From Halobacteriovorax marinus SJ (lineage in GTDB: Bacteria; Bdellovibrionota; Bacteriovoracia; Bacteriovoracales; Bacteriovoracaceae): DNA of 64,000 nucleotides. The stretch is taken from the NCBI RefSeq assembly GCF_000210915.2, contig NC_016620.1:806001-870000 (forward strand), given 5' to 3'. The notes under the pieces were generated by a model. It did no database searches. It was not told the origin of the DNA and saw only the letters and a list, made by a program, of their open reading frames with translations. A program made the translations under genes and the position numbers. How positions within the stretch are numbered: position 1 is the stretch's first letter; each line of letters begins with the position of its first letter. This document shows positions 12,982-24,901 of this stretch, one piece after another.

Positions 12982-13032
12982 TGTCTCCTAGAGTTTTAAG
13001 TGAATCTTTACTTAATTCATAAGGGACTCTCT

Positions 13033-13854
13033 ATGAAGCTTCACTTAATTGCACTGCACTTCTTTCTTTTTCTTAGCATGAATACATTCTCGGCAGAGAA
13101 GAGAATTATTGTCTCTGGTGCGGCAGTCGCAGAAGTTGTGAGTCAACTTGGTGAGGCAGCTAATATAATTGCTAGAGATAGAACTTCTGTCGTTGTGGAA
13201 GAGATAGCGCATTTAAAAGACTTGGGAATGCCTTCGCAAATGAATGCTGAGGTTATTATTTCCATGAAGCCAGACCTTTTTCTATATGGCTCTAAAAATA
13301 AAAATGAGAAATTGGTAGGGCAATTAAATGCAGCGGGAATCAAGTCTTATGAAGTTAGGGAAAGTGATTCTGTTAAAAATATTCTAGAGAAAATTGATTC
13401 CGTTTCATCGATTTTAGATATTGATGAAGACAGAGTAAGAAAGCTTAAGAGCGAAGTTGAAAGTAATCTTACTAAGATTTCTAAATTAAATAAAATTAAA
13501 AGTAAGTCAGCTGTTTTTATCTATGCGCGTGGAGCAAACCATATATTTATGGCCGGAAAGAAAACTCCTGCTAACGAAATGATGAACTTAATAGGAATTA
13601 GTAATGCCTTTAATGAGTTCGATGGTTTTAAACCAATCTCTTTAGAAAGTTTGGTTAAGGCCAATCCTGATTATATCATTATGCTAAAGTCTGGAGTGAG
13701 AGGACTTAAGAATATTTGGAATATTCCAGGGTTAAAGCATACTACGGCAGGAAAGAACAAACAGTTAATTGAGACAGACACGTTGCCTTTTCTTGGCTTT
13801 GTGCCAGAGACTCTTCCATTAATAATGTCTTTAAATAAATCTCTGAGTAAATGA
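13033..13854 (+). CDS. hmuT: Heme ABC transporter substrate-binding protein
   Basis: 273 aa from ATG 13033 (AAGGGA upstream); a GTG at 13000 in frame gives a poor signal sequence. An N-terminal Sec signal peptide (LIALHFFLFLSMNTFSAE) is followed by the periplasmic binding fold of the HmuT/cobalamin-binding class III type: RIIVSGAAVAEVVSQLG, ARDRTS, then LGMPSQMNAEVIISMKPDLF and the C-terminal NPDYIIMLKSG and GLK-type segments. It delivers heme to HmuUV. The overlap with hmuU and the following hugZ gene define a heme operon. The GTTTGA palindrome upstream suggests regulation by iron or heme. Confidence 0.88.
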   Translation: MKLHLIALHFFLFLSMNTFSAEKRIIVSGAAVAEVVSQLGEAANIIARDRTSVVVEEIAHLKDLGMPSQMNAEVIISMKPDLFLYGSKNKNEKLVGQLNAAGIKSYEVRESDSVKNILEKIDSVSSILDIDEDRVRKLKSEVESNLTKISKLNKIKSKSAVFIYARGANHIFMAGKKTPANEMMNLIGISNAFNEFDGFKPISLESLVKANPDYIIMLKSGVRGLKNIWNIPGLKHTTAGKNKQLIETDTLPFLGFVPETLPLIMSLNKSLSK

Positions 13855-14912
13855 AAAAAGGTCCTCACAACAGTCTTTCATACGAGATTTACTCTCTTCA
13901 ACAAAGAAGAGAAGGCTTTATAACAAGCCTTTTTATTTTTATTTCTATAGCTTTAATGATAACTGCAACGTTTTGGGGTCCTATAGAAATTCACTTCTTA
14001 GACTTATTCTCAGTTGAGAGTATGGAGTTTGAAATTCTTTCAAATATTAGAATTCCAAGAGTGATCGCTGGATTTTTTATTGGAGGAGCTTTAGCAATTG
14101 TTGGAGCGGTTCTACAAATCATCTTCTCAAATCCTCTAGCTGATTCGGGACTGATTGGTATCTCAGCTGGAAGCATGGTTGCAGTAGTTATTGGGATTGT
14201 AATTGCACCTGTAATACCTGCACTTGATTACCTCTTTACTCAACTTGGAGTATATACTTTGCCTCTGCTTGCTTTTGCTGGCGGGCTATTTTTGGTGAGC
14301 ATTGTTTATAAACTCTCTCTTCATCAAGGAAGAGTTGATGTACGAACAATGTTATTGGCCGGAATTGCGATGAATTCATTGGCCGGAGCGGTAACAGGCC
14401 TTATTATATACATGGCCGATGATACTGAGATTCGCTCTATCACATTTTGGACAATGGGCTCTCTTGCTGGTGTCACTTGGAATGGTGTCATTCCTATTTT
14501 AATTATAATTATAGTTGGAGTCTTCTTTCTCTATCATCTGAGAGAGGATATTCACTGCTATATGGCGGGAGAGAAGCAGGCAATATGTCTTGGTGTAGAT
14601 GTTGAAAAATTAAAAAGAAGAGTTCTCATCATCTCAGCTCTTATCTCAGGAGCTTCAGTTGCGTTAACTGGTATGATTGGATTTGTTGGTCTGGTTGTTC
14701 CACATATTGTCAGGGGACTTTTTGGAGTAAAAGCAAGTGTTGTAATGCTTCTTTCATTTCTAATGGGAGGGAGCTTCTTGGTCTTGGCAGATCTTTTTTC
14801 AAAAACAATTGTTCTTCCCGCGGAACTTCCAATTGGTGTAACCACGAGTTTAATTGGAGCGCCATACTTTATCTTTCTTCTTCAAAGAATTAAAAGAGGC
14901 TCAAATGCTTAG
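13851..14912 (+). CDS. hmuU: Heme ABC transporter permease (FecCD family)
   Basis: 353 aa, overlapping hmuT by 4 bases (ATGA). A cytoplasmic N-terminus is followed by about nine or ten hydrophobic segments. FecCD signatures include RIPRVIAGFFIGGALAIVGA, NPLADSGLIGISAGS and FVGLVVPHIVRGLFG near the C-terminus, where the GLVVPH cytoplasmic loop contacts the ATPase. It forms the inner-membrane channel for heme with HmuV. Confidence 0.93.
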   Translation: MKKGPHNSLSYEIYSLQQRREGFITSLFIFISIALMITATFWGPIEIHFLDLFSVESMEFEILSNIRIPRVIAGFFIGGALAIVGAVLQIIFSNPLADSGLIGISAGSMVAVVIGIVIAPVIPALDYLFTQLGVYTLPLLAFAGGLFLVSIVYKLSLHQGRVDVRTMLLAGIAMNSLAGAVTGLIIYMADDTEIRSITFWTMGSLAGVTWNGVIPILIIIIVGVFFLYHLREDIHCYMAGEKQAICLGVDVEKLKRRVLIISALISGASVALTGMIGFVGLVVPHIVRGLFGVKASVVMLLSFLMGGSFLVLADLFSKTIVLPAELPIGVTTSLIGAPYFIFLLQRIKRGSNA

Positions 14913-15672
14913 GGTCGTTGATCTAAATTTCCATCGAGGAAAGAGAAAAATTATAGATAATGTTAGTCTATCTATAAAAGCGGGTGAGTTTGTTGCTATC
15001 GTCGGCAAGAACGGAGAGGGGAAGTCTACACTAGTGGATCTTCTTGCAGGTATATCAAAAGGACAGCACAAAGAGATTTCTTATAATGACACTCTCATTG
15101 AAGAGATGAGCTTAGAGGAGCTTGGAAGAATAAGGGCCCTCTTGTCTCAAAAAAGTAACTTACAATTTAGTATGACTGTCTATGAGTTTATTCTCTTAGC
15201 AAAGAGATCAAAGTCTTCTCTAAAATCAGATGACTTCACTTACTTAGATTTAATTATTGAAGAATTTGACCTAGAGAAATTTATTGATCGTGAGATCTCT
15301 TCTCTTTCAGGGGGAGAGTTTCAAAGAGTTATTTTGGCAAAGACAGTTTTTCAACTATATCCGTTTTCGAGTGAGAAGAGTGCCTTTCTATTTTTGGACG
15401 AGCCAATGTCTGCGATGGATCTAGAGGTTCAGCAAAAGATGATGAGAATTCTCAAAAGTTTGGTGGCAAAGTATAATCTCAGCATTATTGTCGTTTTACA
15501 TGACTTAAACCAAGTCTCTCACTATTGTGATAGAGTTTTGATTCTTTCACAGGGAAAGATTTGTATTAACGCAGATCCTGATGAGGCATTTACAGTAAGT
15601 AATTTGAAGAAGTTTTTTAATTTAGAAGTAATGATATCTAAGGTTGAAAATAAAAAAGTGATTTTATATTAG
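14905..15672 (+). CDS. hmuV: Heme ABC transporter ATP-binding protein
   Basis: 255 aa from ATG 14905, overlapping hmuU by 8 bases; a longer in-frame start at 14854 lies deep inside hmuU and was rejected. Walker A is GKNGEGKST, the signature is LSGGEFQR, Walker B is FLFLDEPMSAMD, and the H-loop is VVLHDLNQ. The order and the C-terminal length match the HmuV/FhuC group. It energises heme import. Unlike many HmuV genes it carries no extra domain. Confidence 0.93.
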   Translation: MLRVVDLNFHRGKRKIIDNVSLSIKAGEFVAIVGKNGEGKSTLVDLLAGISKGQHKEISYNDTLIEEMSLEELGRIRALLSQKSNLQFSMTVYEFILLAKRSKSSLKSDDFTYLDLIIEEFDLEKFIDREISSLSGGEFQRVILAKTVFQLYPFSSEKSAFLFLDEPMSAMDLEVQQKMMRILKSLVAKYNLSIIVVLHDLNQVSHYCDRVLILSQGKICINADPDEAFTVSNLKKFFNLEVMISKVENKKVILY

Positions 15673-15680
15673 GAGGAAAG

Positions 15681-16415
15681 ATGAAATTAGAAGTGAATGA
15701 ACAAGTGATTACGGATGCGAAGAACTTTATAAGAAGTATAGACGCCGGAGTTCTTTCTACAGTTATGAAAATTGATGAAGATACATATCCATTTGGAGCC
15801 ATGTGCCCATTCGTCCTTTCTTTAGAGGGAGAGGTTATTGTACTTATCAGTGATATAGCTATGCATACTAAAAATATTAAAGAAAGTAATAAAGTTTCGT
15901 TTAGTGTTTTTACTAATCATGCAAAGAATAAGCAGGCATCTTCAAGAATTTGTATCGTAGGGGATGCTCATAAAGTTGAAAAAGAGAGTGATAAGTATAG
16001 CCTTGTGAGCAAGAGATACTTGAGATTCTTCCCAGAGGCAAAGAGTTACTTTGAAGCACATAATTTTAACTTCTATACGATAACTCCTGTAAAAGCACAT
16101 TATGTACAAACATTTGGAAAGATCTATACTTTTGATGGAGCACTTTTAAGTGAAGGTCTTCCAGAGTGGGCCGGAGAAGAAAACTCTGTGATAGAGCATA
16201 TGAATAACGATCATCAAAACGTTTTTTCAAAATACCTTAGTGACGCTAAGATTGATTATAGTGGTGACGAAGAAAAATTGAAACTTGTAGACTTTGATCA
16301 ACATGGTTTTCACCTCTCATCGGGAAGAGGAGACTTCAATTATTTAAACTTTCCTAATCAAGCCTTAACTCTTGCAGACCTAAGAAAAGAATTTGTTGAT
16401 CTAGCGAGAAGATAA
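15681..16415 (+). CDS. hugZ: HugZ/HutZ-type heme-degrading oxygenase
   Basis: 244 aa, 8 bases after hmuV with an AGGAGG RBS. The N-terminal domain is the pyridoxamine-phosphate-oxidase-like split barrel (GVLSTVMKIDEDTYPFGAM, DIAMHTKNIKESNKVSF). The C-terminal DUF2470 domain has HMNNDHQNVF, containing the His used as a heme ligand region in HugZ. These enzymes open the heme ring and release iron in the cytoplasm, completing the import-and-degrade pathway of this operon. Confidence 0.9.
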   Translation: MKLEVNEQVITDAKNFIRSIDAGVLSTVMKIDEDTYPFGAMCPFVLSLEGEVIVLISDIAMHTKNIKESNKVSFSVFTNHAKNKQASSRICIVGDAHKVEKESDKYSLVSKRYLRFFPEAKSYFEAHNFNFYTITPVKAHYVQTFGKIYTFDGALLSEGLPEWAGEENSVIEHMNNDHQNVFSKYLSDAKIDYSGDEEKLKLVDFDQHGFHLSSGRGDFNYLNFPNQALTLADLRKEFVDLARR

Positions 16416-18272: not shown

Positions 18273-18293
18273 AAATGCAACTAAGTTGCATTT
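18273..18293. promoter_or_regulatory. Zur-like palindrome upstream of the candidate zinc operon
   Basis: AAATGCAAC and GTTGCATTT flank TAA, a perfect 9-bp inverted repeat. The TGCAAC/GTTGCA half-sites resemble zinc-uptake-regulator boxes in some proteobacteria, though I cannot confirm that here. It is 52 bases upstream of the His-rich protein gene and in promoter position. Confidence 0.55.
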
Positions 18294-18344
18294 TATGTTT
18301 TGCTGTGATATTTCTTTTTTCAATTGATCTATTATGGAGGAAAT

Positions 18345-18962
18345 ATGAAAGTTACATTTCTAAGTGCATTTATTTTATCATTATTATCTTTCGGGGCTTC
18401 GGCTTCACAAGTAAGCGGGCTAGACTTGGCCAAGGCTTTGAACTCTTCTCTAGAGGAAGCGTCTGTAGAAGTTGATGTAAATTCAATTTATGCCTTTCAA
18501 TCTATTGTTGAAGATCACGAAATTGAAGTTTCATTTTTAAGCGAAGATCACCTTCACCTAACTTATGGTTGTCACTACCATGGATCAACTATGGCCTGTC
18601 ACGAAGAGGGACATGATCATAAGAACCAAAGCGTATCAAAGTCTGGAGAAAAGACTTTCTCAAATATTTTAAGTGCTCACGAAAGTGCAGTTGCAAAGCT
18701 TACTAAGACTCTTACTAGAAGAGGTGCAGACTTTGGAGCAGTAAGTGCGCTTAAGGTATGGACTCATACAGATGATCACGATCATGGTCACGCACACAAG
18801 CTTTCTGATGATCACGATCACGGGCAAGATGTTTGGACAAAATTCAATTACACACTAGCTGGTAAAGATCAGGTTATCTATGTTCTTTGTCATACTCATG
18901 GTCACGACACAGAATTTAGCTGTCACTACAGTAAAACTGGTGAAGGTGAACCACAGTTCTAA
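18345..18962 (+). CDS. Periplasmic His-rich (zinc-binding) protein
   Basis: 205 aa from ATG 18345 (RBS GGAGGAAA). A Sec signal peptide ends near ASASQ (residue about 21). The mature protein is rich in His and Asp: EDHEIE, SEDHLHL, CHYHGSTMACHEEGHDHK, and two DDHDHGHAH/DDHDHG clusters, then CHTHGHD and CHYSK. Paired Cys next to His (CHYHG, ACHE, LCHTH, SCHY) suggest metal binding or disulfides. It resembles periplasmic zinc-trapping proteins. It heads a three-gene operon with a lipoprotein and an outer-membrane barrel. Zinc is inferred from His content and the upstream box. Confidence 0.75.
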   Translation: MKVTFLSAFILSLLSFGASASQVSGLDLAKALNSSLEEASVEVDVNSIYAFQSIVEDHEIEVSFLSEDHLHLTYGCHYHGSTMACHEEGHDHKNQSVSKSGEKTFSNILSAHESAVAKLTKTLTRRGADFGAVSALKVWTHTDDHDHGHAHKLSDDHDHGQDVWTKFNYTLAGKDQVIYVLCHTHGHDTEFSCHYSKTGEGEPQF

Positions 18963-18980
18963 TTAAGCTAGGAGCTCAAA

Positions 18981-19616
18981 TTGAAGAATATAATGAAGCT
19001 ATTTCCATATATATTTGTTCTCTTATTATCAGTGTCTTGTGGTGAGTTAACTGGGGAGAGTACAGGTGCAAATATTTTAGATAAGACCTCTGATTTAATT
19101 GGTGGTTTAAGCTCTGTGTCTGCTGGAGAGAATAAGTATCTTCTAAGTGGTACGGCAAAAAATGGTGGAAATGCAGGTCATTACTTTCGTTTAAAATTTG
19201 AGCTTCCTGAATCTGAAAAAATAAGTTTCTACTTCTTTAGTTCAAGATCATTGAACACAGGTGTGAAGTACTCTTTTAAAAGAGAAGCAGGATCTGTCTT
19301 ACTTACGATGTCTTTAAATGGTTTAGAAGATACTGTTGAACTTCAGTCTTTCTCTGACTCTTTAGAGGTTGATGTTGCCATTGATATTCACAATGATCAC
19401 ACAGACGCTCATATGTTGGTATGGGATTTCAATGGTCCAAGAGGGGACCGTGAAGATTGTAGCTTTGACGGTGGTTGTCTTTATAACACAGAAGATTTTG
19501 CATTTGATGTTTGGCTTGGCGTAGGAAAAGCAAGTGGAACTTTCTGGGGATTTGAAGGCGATAGATCATTAATTAAATTATTAGAAGGTCCACTGGATGC
19601 TATTTCAGATGTCTAG
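18981..19616 (+). CDS. Lipoprotein of the candidate zinc operon
   Basis: 211 aa. TTG 18981 is preferred as start because AGGAG lies 6 bases upstream; ATG 18993 is too far from it. The signal ends in a lipobox (LLLSVSC), so the protein is lipid-anchored. The mature part has beta-rich segments and a His/Asp patch (DIHNDHTDAHMLVWDFNGP) and a short disulfide-like CSFDGGC. No family is recognised. It lies between the His-rich periplasmic protein and the barrel gene and overlaps the latter by 8 bases, so a role in the same transport process is inferred. Confidence 0.7.
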   Translation: MKNIMKLFPYIFVLLLSVSCGELTGESTGANILDKTSDLIGGLSSVSAGENKYLLSGTAKNGGNAGHYFRLKFELPESEKISFYFFSSRSLNTGVKYSFKREAGSVLLTMSLNGLEDTVELQSFSDSLEVDVAIDIHNDHTDAHMLVWDFNGPRGDREDCSFDGGCLYNTEDFAFDVWLGVGKASGTFWGFEGDRSLIKLLEGPLDAISDV

Positions 19617-20679
19617 AAATATAAAAGTCTTAATTACATTTCTTTTTACAATTTATTCTTTAAATTCTCTCGCACTGAAATTTTCTGACGTAGAAATTTC
19701 AGCCGCGGGTGACTTTATTTATGAGCACGGTTTAAATCAAGAGAGTGAGGCAGGGGATAGGCTTGTCATGCGAGGAGTTGAACTCTCTGTCTTTGCACCC
19801 GTAGATAATAATTTTAGTGGAGTACTTACGGCGGCTGCCCACGATGAACATGGTGAAACAGTTGTAGAGCTACATGAACTCTACCTCTCAAGTTTCTCAC
19901 TCTTTCCGAGGACAAATATTAGAGTAGGGCAGTACTTCTTGGCTATTGGTCGACTGAATCGCTTTCATCAGCATGATTGGGTTTTCACTAGAGCGCCAAA
20001 ATTCTTTAGAACTTTCTTTGGAGAAGAAGGAGTTCTCGACTCTGGTGTCGAAGTTGATTATCTTCTTCCGTTTGAGAGCGTCTATAATTTCACTTTTGGT
20101 TTCACTAGTGGACATAAGTGGGGACACTCTCATACTGAGGGAAAAAAGCCAAAGACTCCAACTCACTACGCTCGCTTATCAAACTTCATTGAGTTAGATG
20201 GAGCGAATGGTGTTGAAATTGGACTCACTTATTTAGGGAGAGTCGATGCCAATGATAATGCAAATAAGTTAATTGGAATTGATACGACAGCGAAATGGAG
20301 AAGAGGAAGGCTCACAGAGTTTCTAATTCAAAGTGAGCTTTGGTATAAGAATGAGAAGGATCAAAGTGGAGAGCGAAAGGAGTATCTCGGATGGTATCTC
20401 TTTAATGAATATGGTGTTTCTCTCTCTCATAGTTTGGGAGCAAGACTAGATGCCTATAAAGATCTCTCTAAGAGAAATGCAATAACAAATAAGAAGTCCA
20501 ATAATATAAGTTTGGGCGCTTCTTTACAGCATACCTATACTTCAAGTGAATTTCTAAAGATACGAACAAGTATGGCCCACGAATTTGATAGGGAAGAGGG
20601 GCTAACAACGAATAAGGACACTAGGGCCATGTTGCAATTTATCTTTATTCTCGGAAGTCATCCCGCCCACAGTTTTTAG
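19609..20679 (+). CDS. Outer-membrane beta-barrel protein, zinc-locus type
   Basis: 356 aa from ATG 19609, overlapping the lipoprotein gene. A Sec signal peptide (ITFLFTIYSLNSLA) precedes a barrel-like mature protein with alternating amphipathic strands and a terminal Phe. The segment RVGQYFLAIGRLNRFHQHDW followed by APKFFRTFFGEEGVLDSG is typical of a family of outer-membrane proteins found next to ZnuA-like genes. His residues are frequent (HDEHGE, HQHDW, GHKWGHSH). It is not TonB-dependent by sequence (no plug domain seen). It could be a channel or porin for metal entry. Confidence 0.7.
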   Translation: MSRNIKVLITFLFTIYSLNSLALKFSDVEISAAGDFIYEHGLNQESEAGDRLVMRGVELSVFAPVDNNFSGVLTAAAHDEHGETVVELHELYLSSFSLFPRTNIRVGQYFLAIGRLNRFHQHDWVFTRAPKFFRTFFGEEGVLDSGVEVDYLLPFESVYNFTFGFTSGHKWGHSHTEGKKPKTPTHYARLSNFIELDGANGVEIGLTYLGRVDANDNANKLIGIDTTAKWRRGRLTEFLIQSELWYKNEKDQSGERKEYLGWYLFNEYGVSLSHSLGARLDAYKDLSKRNAITNKKSNNISLGASLQHTYTSSEFLKIRTSMAHEFDREEGLTTNKDTRAMLQFIFILGSHPAHSF

Positions 20680-20769
20680 TTCAGTCTAAATGCCTCTTGT
20701 CTAATATAAGTTTTACACGTTCATGAGACTATTTCTACGCCTCTATATATAAGTACTTAGAGGTTTTTT

Positions 20770-21867
20770 ATGAAATTTATAATTCTAGCGATGTGCCTAG
20801 TGGCACCTGTTCATTTACTTGCCGCAGAGAGCTTTGGCGGGATCTTTCTCGACTCTTCAATTCCAAATTTTCAACTTCATGCCCTAAAGGGAGATTTAAC
20901 TTATCTCTATAGGAAAGAGAAGGTTGCTGATGACGAGAGTTTTCAAACGTTATTAGAACTTGAATCTATTGATGGACCGACACTTTATAATTGGATCTAC
21001 AACCGAGTGAAATATATTATCGGTGAAGAGTATCAGATTCGTGGCAGAAATTATGTGACCAGAAGAGATTTTCAATTTCCTTCTACACCTCTTCCTGAAG
21101 ATGCTTTTGATAGCCACGATGCCTATGGTGGTTCTGTTATTATGAGTAATATTGGAGCAGGACTATATCTAGATGGTAAAAAGAAGAAGATCTTAAAGGG
21201 AATCAAGCTTCAGCGCAAAAAAGTTTATGCCACAACTCCAAGGGTTGGAATTCTGCAAATTGGTCAAGGCCTTTTCGCTGATAGAATAATGATCAATGAC
21301 AATATAAATTCAGAGGCAAATACAATTAAGAGACTTGGTACTCTCTTCCATGAAGCTCGTCACAGTGATGGAAATGGAAATCATATTGGTTTCTACCATC
21401 ATCGTTGTCCAATTGGGCATAGTCTCTATGGTTTCTCAGCTTGCGAACCATATGCAAACGGATCTTATACAATTGATGCTGTTGCCACTAAGAAATTATT
21501 AGAAGACTGCAAGTCATGTTCTTTAGAAGATCGCTCTGCTTTAGAGGCAAAAATAGCAGATTCTTTTGATAGAGTCGTTGTTCTCTCTCACTTAAAAACT
21601 GAGCAAGAACTTCTAGAGGAAATGGAGTCGTATAAGAAAGTTATCGACGTTTATACAATGCTTTTAGAAACAAGTCCTTCGACAGCGCAAACATCACAGC
21701 AAGAGCTCGAGAGATGGAGTGCTAAGTATCAAGAGTGTGCCGATCAACTTGAAGAGCTAAGAAGTAATCCTCAACCCACTTCAAGAGATTCATCTCCAGA
21801 AGGGGACTTCTCTGAGCTCACTGTTGAAGAGTCGTCGAGACTAATAGAAAACTCTCTCAAGCGTTAG
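20770..21867 (+). CDS. Secreted HEXXH metallopeptidase-like protein
   Basis: 365 aa with a Sec signal peptide (IILAMCLVAPVHLLAAE). A zincin-type HEARH motif (HEXXH) lies near residue 198, followed by SDGNGNHIGF and YHHRCPIGHSLYGFSACE with further His and Cys. The C-terminal third is a helical, probably coiled-coil tail (residues about 270-365). The family is not recognised; similar secreted HEXXH proteins are plausible in predatory bacteria. The next gene starts 3 bases later, so the two form a unit. Enzymatic activity is inferred from the motif only. Confidence 0.65.
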   Translation: MKFIILAMCLVAPVHLLAAESFGGIFLDSSIPNFQLHALKGDLTYLYRKEKVADDESFQTLLELESIDGPTLYNWIYNRVKYIIGEEYQIRGRNYVTRRDFQFPSTPLPEDAFDSHDAYGGSVIMSNIGAGLYLDGKKKKILKGIKLQRKKVYATTPRVGILQIGQGLFADRIMINDNINSEANTIKRLGTLFHEARHSDGNGNHIGFYHHRCPIGHSLYGFSACEPYANGSYTIDAVATKKLLEDCKSCSLEDRSALEAKIADSFDRVVVLSHLKTEQELLEEMESYKKVIDVYTMLLETSPSTAQTSQQELERWSAKYQECADQLEELRSNPQPTSRDSSPEGDFSELTVEESSRLIENSLKR

Positions 21868-23869: not shown

Positions 23870-24901
23870 TTAGACAAAACCACGCAATAGACTAACAGCA
23901 TTCTTACCAAGGTCTTTAGTGAAGTAGCCACCTTCTTGGAGAACAACGGTTGGAAGATCTAGGGAAGAGATTAACTTTCCAATTTTCTCAAAGTCACTTG
24001 TCTCAAGTAGGAAATCTCCAACAGGATCAAGTTTATAGGTGTCAAAGCCTGCGCTTAGAATAAGGTAGTCGGGCTCAAACCTTTTAATTGTTGGAAAGAC
24101 TGTCTCAAGAAGTGCTTTCTTATATGCAGGGAATTTCGTTTTAGGAGGGAGAATAACATTTAAGTTATAGCCCTCTCCTTTGCCGGCACCAATCTCTGAA
24201 GAGAATCCCCAAAAAAATGGGAAGTAATCCCTTGGGTCTCCGTGAATAGAAATTGTGAGTACCTTATCATCTTTGTAAAAAACCTCTTGGGTTCCATTAC
24301 CGTGATGAAAATCAATGTCTAGTATAACCACGCGCCCTTTTTTCTTTAGTAGCTTGGCCACGATGGCAGCGTTATTAAAATAGCAGTAACCGCCGTAACT
24401 ATCTTTACTGGCATGATGTCCAGGAGGCCTAGAGATGGCGTAGGCGACAGAAGATCTTCCTTTATAAATTTCTTCTCCAGCAGCGTAGGCACTCGCCGCA
24501 CTCCAACTGGCCGCAAGCCAAGTCTTACTATCTAGAGGTGTTCCACTGTCAAAGCAGTAGAAACCTGCGTGCTTAATATTAGTCGGGTCGGGCCTGGACT
24601 TCTTCTTGTCTGGAAAGACACTGGGGTAGAAGGCCTGTCCGTCTGGCAGAGATGCTGCCGAATTATAGAGAGTGACTAACTCGTAGCTGTGGTTGGCCCT
24701 AATGCTAGCGAGGGGAATTCTCTCTGGCTCTTTAAGATCAAAGAGTTCCTTGTGAGACTTGATGGCCTTAAAGATGGATTCCGCGCGCTTAGTGCTCTCC
24801 GGGTGTTTAATCCTATTGCCGAGGGCCCATTCATACTTAGGGTGAAATTCCATTTGCTTAGTATGAAAGTAGACGGGAATTTTTGTTTTTTCTTTTTTCA
24901 C
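23870..24901 (-). CDS. Histone deacetylase / acetylpolyamine amidohydrolase family protein
   Basis: 343 aa, cytoplasmic. The class II HDAC fold is clear: RPPGHHA, DIDFHHGNGTQ with the Asp and His zinc ligands, GFDTYKLDPVG with the second Asp, and EGGY near the C-terminus. Bacterial members remove acetyl groups from acetylated polyamines or proteins. The insertion around PFFWGFSSEIG next to the active site is characteristic of the deacetylase group that includes AcuC/AphA. A polyamine role could connect with the speE locus at 43 kb, but they are 19 kb apart. Confidence 0.88.
   Translation of the reverse strand: MKKEKTKIPVYFHTKQMEFHPKYEWALGNRIKHPESTKRAESIFKAIKSHKELFDLKEPERIPLASIRANHSYELVTLYNSAASLPDGQAFYPSVFPDKKKSRPDPTNIKHAGFYCFDSGTPLDSKTWLAASWSAASAYAAGEEIYKGRSSVAYAISRPPGHHASKDSYGGYCYFNNAAIVAKLLKKKGRVVILDIDFHHGNGTQEVFYKDDKVLTISIHGDPRDYFPFFWGFSSEIGAGKGEGYNLNVILPPKTKFPAYKKALLETVFPTIKRFEPDYLILSAGFDTYKLDPVGDFLLETSDFEKIGKLISSLDLPTVVLQEGGYFTKDLGKNAVSLLRGFV

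Follow-up and report, generated by a model that had tools for sequence, protein, structure and literature searches.

A predicted Zur-regulated operon for a porin, a lipoprotein and a Cys/His-rich protein as the probable outer-membrane and periplasmic half of a zinc importer in Halobacteriovorax marinus SJ

Introduction

Zur boxes, ZnuABC and porins are already known, and the crossing of the outer membrane by zinc under starvation has so far been attributed mainly to TonB-dependent receptors. A 2018 review tabulates Zur regulons, and the entries for the outer membrane in its Gram-negative rows are TonB receptors (PMC6103462). With reference to the regulatory DNA, Rodionov et al. (2004) predicted ATGCAACNNNGTTGCAT computationally as a Zur box upstream of znuABC-zur in two Desulfovibrio genomes (PMC545781). 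With reference to the periplasm, the closest described protein is ZrgA, which has a ferredoxin-like fold, and whose His-rich loops in V. cholerae contribute zinc sites yet are dispensable (PMC9820375). Among the papers covered by our literature search, none on zinc uptake in the group to which Halobacteriovorax belongs was found.

In this study, a stretch of 64,000 nucleotides of the genome of Halobacteriovorax marinus SJ (NC_016620.1, positions 806,001 to 870,000), referred to as the window, was investigated. An initial annotation of its sequence had proposed an outer-membrane zinc system in which a palindrome precedes the genes of a His/Cys-rich periplasmic protein, a lipoprotein and an outer-membrane barrel. 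We compared this locus with the systems above and with loci of the closest relatives, and then of up to 369 genomes of the phylum, the barrel being searched in named genomes.

Results

The palindrome and the three genes proposed by the initial annotation were recovered at the following positions of the window:

18273-18293 (no strand): predicted Zur-type operator, palindrome AAATGCAAC-TAA-GTTGCATTT, with the core ATGCAACTAAGTTGCAT at 18275-18291
18336-18340 (+): Shine-Dalgarno sequence GGAGG of the His-rich gene, read from the sequence
18345-18962 (+): His/Cys-rich exported protein, 205 aa with a signal peptide; two alpha+4-beta repeats with Cys-His motifs
18981-19616 (+): lipoprotein, 211 aa; TTG start, AGGAG at 18970
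19609-20679 (+): predicted outer-membrane porin (barrel), 356 aa, 16 predicted strands; alternative start at 19597
20739-20769 (+): possible intrinsic terminator, 7-bp stem CCTCTA../..TAGAGG followed by TTTTT

The barrel reading frame overlaps the lipoprotein stop by 8 nt, and because of this close packing the three genes look like one translationally coupled operon. The hairpin at 20739-20769 is weak (-8.3 kcal/mol, z -1.35).

The palindrome is exact, has a spacer of 3 bases and ends 51 bp before the ATG of the His-rich gene. It is unique in the window even when up to 3 mismatches are allowed (shuffle mean 0.02), and the contiguous 18-mer obtained by leaving out the spacer was searched for and found to be absent. 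The comparison with known Zur motifs that had been recommended earlier gave a clear result, as the 17-bp core ATGCAACTAAGTTGCAT is identical to the Desulfovibrio consensus ATGCAACNNNGTTGCAT (PMC545781). The Desulfovibrio box shares this 17-bp palindrome and likewise lies upstream of a zinc ABC operon; it is a computational prediction. The Halobacteriovorax box fronts a split envelope operon, and the consensus across the family is looser, WTGCAA-N5-TTGCAW. The palindrome upstream of the three-gene operon is thus assigned as a predicted Zur-type box, to which Zur would bind.

The looser consensus occurs at 4 exact sites in the 3.44-Mb genome, where a Markov model expects about 1.3. Three of these lie outside coding ORFs: at the His-rich operon, at a barrel-znuACB operon, and at a MerC-family gene that neighbours the only gene of the FUR family found. 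The fourth, at 356554 (L025), was rejected as a regulon member because it is inside a 432-aa ORF. The one-mismatch sites of the genome that were examined were mostly within ORFs, and none of the few intergenic ones was near recognisable zinc genes. At the second locus, situated approximately 70 kb from the three-gene operon, the box is 43 bp upstream of the start of a barrel paralogue, which is followed by znuA, znuC and znuB; ZnuABC is therefore not missing. The initial annotation had made its proposal depend on the box recurring at zinc genes and had advised a search for ZnuABC under the same box elsewhere; the box does recur at zinc genes, and the search for ZnuABC was positive. Its remark that neither an ABC transporter nor ZnuA is present was correct for the three-gene operon, but not for the genome, which has ZnuA, ZnuC and ZnuB under the same box, nor for the window, which contains a heme-type ABC system at 13000-15672.

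Among relatives, a box with at most one mismatch within 250 bp of the first gene was detected in 19 of 21 family-type operons, against 0.09 expected from shuffles, and in 6 of 14 more distant barrel operons by the same limits. The full operons L037 and L043 showed no recognisable box at the start used.

The sole FUR-family gene that was found in the genome is the following:

L023:3613-4029: FUR-family regulator (candidate Zur), PF01475 E 1.7e-25

It is divergent from a CobW/COG0523 gene, and its best PDB matches are Fur (E 7e-19), FurB/Zur of M. tuberculosis (E 1e-13) and Zur of E. coli (E 4e-4). By sequence, the regulator is nearer to Fur than to Zur of E. coli, so that a role in zinc sensing is proposed from its context. 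In G030, its relative (61%) is divergent from a six-gene zinc operon with a box between them. The MerC-family gene (PF03203; L023:4030-4491 (-), which is C1:2346029-2346490) carries the box at its start and is convergent with the FUR-family (zur) gene; an exact box is found upstream of the MerC-family gene in all five genus genomes and in G107. The product is a candidate Zur-regulated inner-membrane zinc importer.

The barrel was modelled with AlphaFold from an alignment of 24 sequences, yielding a mean pLDDT of 91, 16 strands and no plug. With residues numbered from the Ser at 19612, the inward loop L3 between strands 5 and 6 comprises residues 110-141 and contains the conserved LNRFHQHDW. 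The closest solved folds by VIA-align were OprO/OprP (Z 27.9), followed by many general porins (Z 23-25), and Foldseek matched Omp32 (E 4e-12). The predicted model has the 16 antiparallel strands and the long inward L3 of general and OprP-type porins. No Plug or TonB_dep_Rec match was obtained for the barrel, and a profile search against PDB sequences found nothing. The sequence match of the barrel to the BBP2 porin family (PF07642) is below the Pfam cut-off (19.1 bits against a gathering threshold of 26.2), and 12 of the 24 homologues match this family (best E 2e-4). By prediction, the barrel is a 16-strand porin and not a TonB receptor. The 16 strands and inward L3 are common to it and to the phosphate-selective porins OprP and OprO, but the identity to these is only 10-12%, and the conserved His/Asp residues are a feature of the L3 of the barrel. 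Residues invariant among the 24 sequences include His77, Glu86, His88, Glu89, His119, His121, Asp122, Trp123, His350 and His353; going by loop position and strand alternation, the conserved His/Asp would line the pore. The earlier designation of the barrel as of the zinc-locus type is right, because its paralogue in the same genome, with 46% identity, lies directly upstream of znuA. This znu-locus paralogue has a His/Asp-rich insertion, HEHDHDEDDAGHDHD, in the loop between strands 7 and 8.

Like ZnuD and other Zur-regulated TonB-dependent zinc receptors, the barrel would be an outer-membrane component of zinc starvation expressed alongside ZnuABC; unlike them, it is a predicted plug-less 16-strand porin. 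None of the three TonB receptors of the genome has a box of one mismatch or fewer within its 1.5 kb flanks, and no TonB receptor is part of the system, in line with the initial annotation.

The lipoprotein aligned with 15 others down to 18% identity, and in these 16 sequences the lipobox Cys20 is invariant, as is a patch of Asp135, His137, Asn138, His144 and Trp148. There was no convincing Pfam match, and profile matches to PDB sequences were rejected as chance matches to antibodies only; going by these searches, the lipoprotein is a new family. With GE after the lipobox Cys, the lipoprotein has no Asp+2-type signal for retention in the inner membrane, and thus placement at the outer membrane is likely.

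Of the 183 residues of the mature His-rich protein, 20 are His and 4 are Cys, consistent with its earlier description as His/Cys-rich. Its AlphaFold model (pLDDT 82) shows two alpha+4-beta repeats with one Cys-His motif each, CHYHG..CH at 76-86 and CHTHG..CH at 182-194, and Cys76, Cys85, Cys182, His183 and His194 are invariant in 10 sequences. The stretch DDHDHGHAH, of low complexity, lies in a loop modelled with low confidence and lacks conservation. Searches against Pfam, NCBIfam and PDB sequences gave no convincing match; Peptidase_M6 (E 0.011) and DUF5640 were rejected, being below the cut-off and not shared by the homologues. Foldseek gave nothing at E 0.001, and the best VIA-align match of the model was 4EXR at Z 6.9, ahead of cystatin-type folds at Z about 4; as common arrangements occur in the range of Z 6.9, the likeness to 4EXR is only suggestive. 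The His-rich protein is therefore also assigned to a putative new family. Like ZrgA of Vibrio and Pseudomonas (zrgABCDE), it is an exported, His-rich, predicted periplasmic protein linked to zinc starvation in the context of an ABC transporter. It differs in that its model has two alpha+4-beta repeats with CH.H..CH motifs and in that it is encoded alongside a classical ZnuA operon, and none of ten homologues matched the ZrgA-family profile at E 0.1. Some short exported proteins, around 90 aa long (L074-L077, L080, L081), resemble the first repeat and are missing the second; they may represent a one-repeat ancestor of the fold.

Comparatively, the gene order His-rich, lipoprotein, barrel, znuA, znuC, znuB was noticed as a single six-gene operon in G002, G015, G010, G013 and G030 and at further loci among L037-L043 (L038 and L044 being copies of G010 and G030), as well as in less closely related families of the phylum (L166, L167, L168). 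The FUR-family gene (zur) adjoins the six-gene operon in several relatives. Directly downstream of the barrel, znuA was present at 22 of 24 named loci, the other two being L036, the G004 counterpart of the three-gene operon, and L050, which is cut off by a contig end; it was also present at all 20 of the further family and phylum barrel loci. Within the genus, the operon is fused in G002, divided into two separate boxed loci in G000 and G004, and represented by barrel-znuACB alone in G003. In the tree, the barrel of the window groups with its G004 counterpart inside the clade of the six-gene operons, and a separate clade with full support and a long stem is made up of the znu-locus barrels from G000, G003 and G004. 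The operon could have been split after a barrel duplication; since the barrel paralogues fall in separate clades, the apparent split could instead be a partial loss, in which the znuACB half was lost while a second znu locus took over.

The His-rich gene was also discovered in a different company. In G082 it stands last in an operon that has an exact box and also includes a TonB-dependent receptor and an unrelated lipoprotein, and a divergent TonB gene adjoins; this pairing with a boxed TonB receptor offers a parallel to the ZnuD-type systems. In G087 it has a one-mismatch box and is followed by a NicO/DsbD-like membrane protein, with zur and two DUF1826 genes nearby. Neither G082 nor G087 has a detectable ZnuA, and the family search reported no barrel for either of them. 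The loci of these two ZnuA-less relatives, in which the His-rich gene is accompanied by a boxed TonB receptor or a NicO/DsbD-like membrane protein, are L169:3100-6618 and L170:4548-7785. The His-rich protein is therefore not strictly dependent on ZnuABC; its ties are to zinc regulation and, at the majority of loci, to an outer-membrane translocator, and less to ZnuABC as such. A role as periplasmic carrier or acceptor is accordingly favoured.

Regarding the neighbours in the window, the gene directly 3' of the operon, at 20770-21867 (+), encodes a 365-aa protein that is exported and, by its HEARH (HExxH) motif, may be a zinc metallopeptidase; it had no Pfam match at E 0.01, and in G004 the gene is not adjacent to the barrel. 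A histone-deacetylase-family gene (PF00850) lies at 23870-24901 (-), and its homologue in G004 directly follows the barrel, so the extra genes between the barrel and the PF00850 gene are found only in the Halobacteriovorax window. On the other side, 13000-16415 (+) holds a heme-type uptake locus consisting of a binding protein, a FecCD permease, a heme ABC ATPase and a HutZ/HugZ-like protein with DUF2470. It was rejected as part of the system, given that no Zur box of one mismatch or fewer stands in front of it and an unrelated gene lies between.

Discussion

We consider it probable that the three-gene operon encodes the half of a zinc importer that lies in the outer membrane and periplasm; the importer would be repressed by Zur, and this half would feed ZnuABC. 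The computed basis of this reading comprises the box and its recurrence, the conserved operon linkage to znuACB, the classes of the proteins, the predicted porin fold, and the conserved His, Asp and Cys residues. From these we infer the binding of Zur, the zinc specificity of the pore and of the system as a whole, the order of hand-over, and the carrying rather than storing of zinc by the lipoprotein and the His-rich protein. When zinc is plentiful, Zur-Zn would sit on the box and repress. When zinc is short, three transcripts would be released together, namely the three-gene operon, barrel-paralogue-znuA-znuC-znuB and the MerC-family gene. Zn2+ would then enter via the 16-strand porin, past conserved His/Asp in the extracellular loops and the L3 constriction, and on the periplasmic side the outer-membrane lipoprotein and the soluble Cys/His-rich protein would take it up; from there it would pass to ZnuA and be pumped in by ZnuB/ZnuC.

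Four other explanations were weighed against this importer. The first gives the His-rich protein and the lipoprotein a role in the buffering, storage or detoxification of periplasmic zinc, with no hand-over. The low-complexity stretch DDHDHGHAH would suit such a role, and the V. cholerae ZrgA loops offer a precedent for zinc sites that are added and yet dispensable (PMC9820375). We nevertheless hold storage to be unlikely, because starvation-type regulation is expected, the operon position next to an outer-membrane translocator is fixed, and the strong conservation is in the folded CH.H..CH motifs, with none in the His-rich loop.

Transport of another metal (Fe, Mn, Ni or Cu), with the lone FUR-family regulator acting as Fur and the pump being a cluster A-I transporter of different specificity, has a somewhat smaller chance still. 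The PF01297 family also covers Mn/Fe binding proteins, the regulator has Fur proteins as its nearest relatives of solved structure, and no other FUR-family gene was found. Against this, the box is identical to a predicted Zur box (PMC545781), the CobW/COG0523 gene adjoining the regulator belongs to a class that is often zinc-linked (PMC2770081), and the boxed His-rich locus of G087 is flanked by DUF1826 genes. Iron in particular is opposed by the heme-type locus of the window, unboxed as described above, and by the three TonB receptors of the genome, which had no box of one mismatch or fewer within their 1.5 kb flanks.

Only slightly below this in probability, and improbable likewise, is a barrel that serves as a receptor for a zinc metallophore or a zinc-loaded protein, with the lipoprotein as its partner, instead of a channel for free zinc. 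Pairs of a surface lipoprotein and a barrel occur in other metal systems, and the znu-locus paralogue does possess its His-rich insertion in an extracellular loop; the predicted fold is, however, that of a 16-strand porin and lacks both a plug and a TonB signature.

Finally, the initial annotation had suggested that zinc may cross the outer membrane by a passive or chaperone-assisted path; such a path, self-contained and independent of ZnuABC, is very improbable: the three-gene operon does lack a ZnuABC gene and G082 and G087 do carry the His-rich gene with no ZnuA detected, but relatives hold these genes as the front half of a znuA-znuC-znuB operon, whose other half stands under the same box in the Halobacteriovorax genome itself.

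In relation to the described systems, what appears to be new is that a porin, instead of a TonB receptor, is a fixed member of the znu operon, and that two uncharacterised protein families stand between the porin and ZnuA. A wider proposal, that a zinc-selective, TonB-independent porin and two undescribed families of periplasmic zinc carriers make up a complete relay from the outer membrane to ZnuA in Bdellovibrionota, with a Cys/His-rich carrier that can take either a porin or a TonB receptor as its outer-membrane partner, is put forward tentatively, as an idea with a little less than an even chance. The fixation of a porin in the znu operon across relatives of predatory bacteria yields candidate proteins that can be tested as a zinc-selective porin and as periplasmic carriers of zinc, and the box gives a ready Zur motif for the annotation of zinc genes in Bdellovibrionota.
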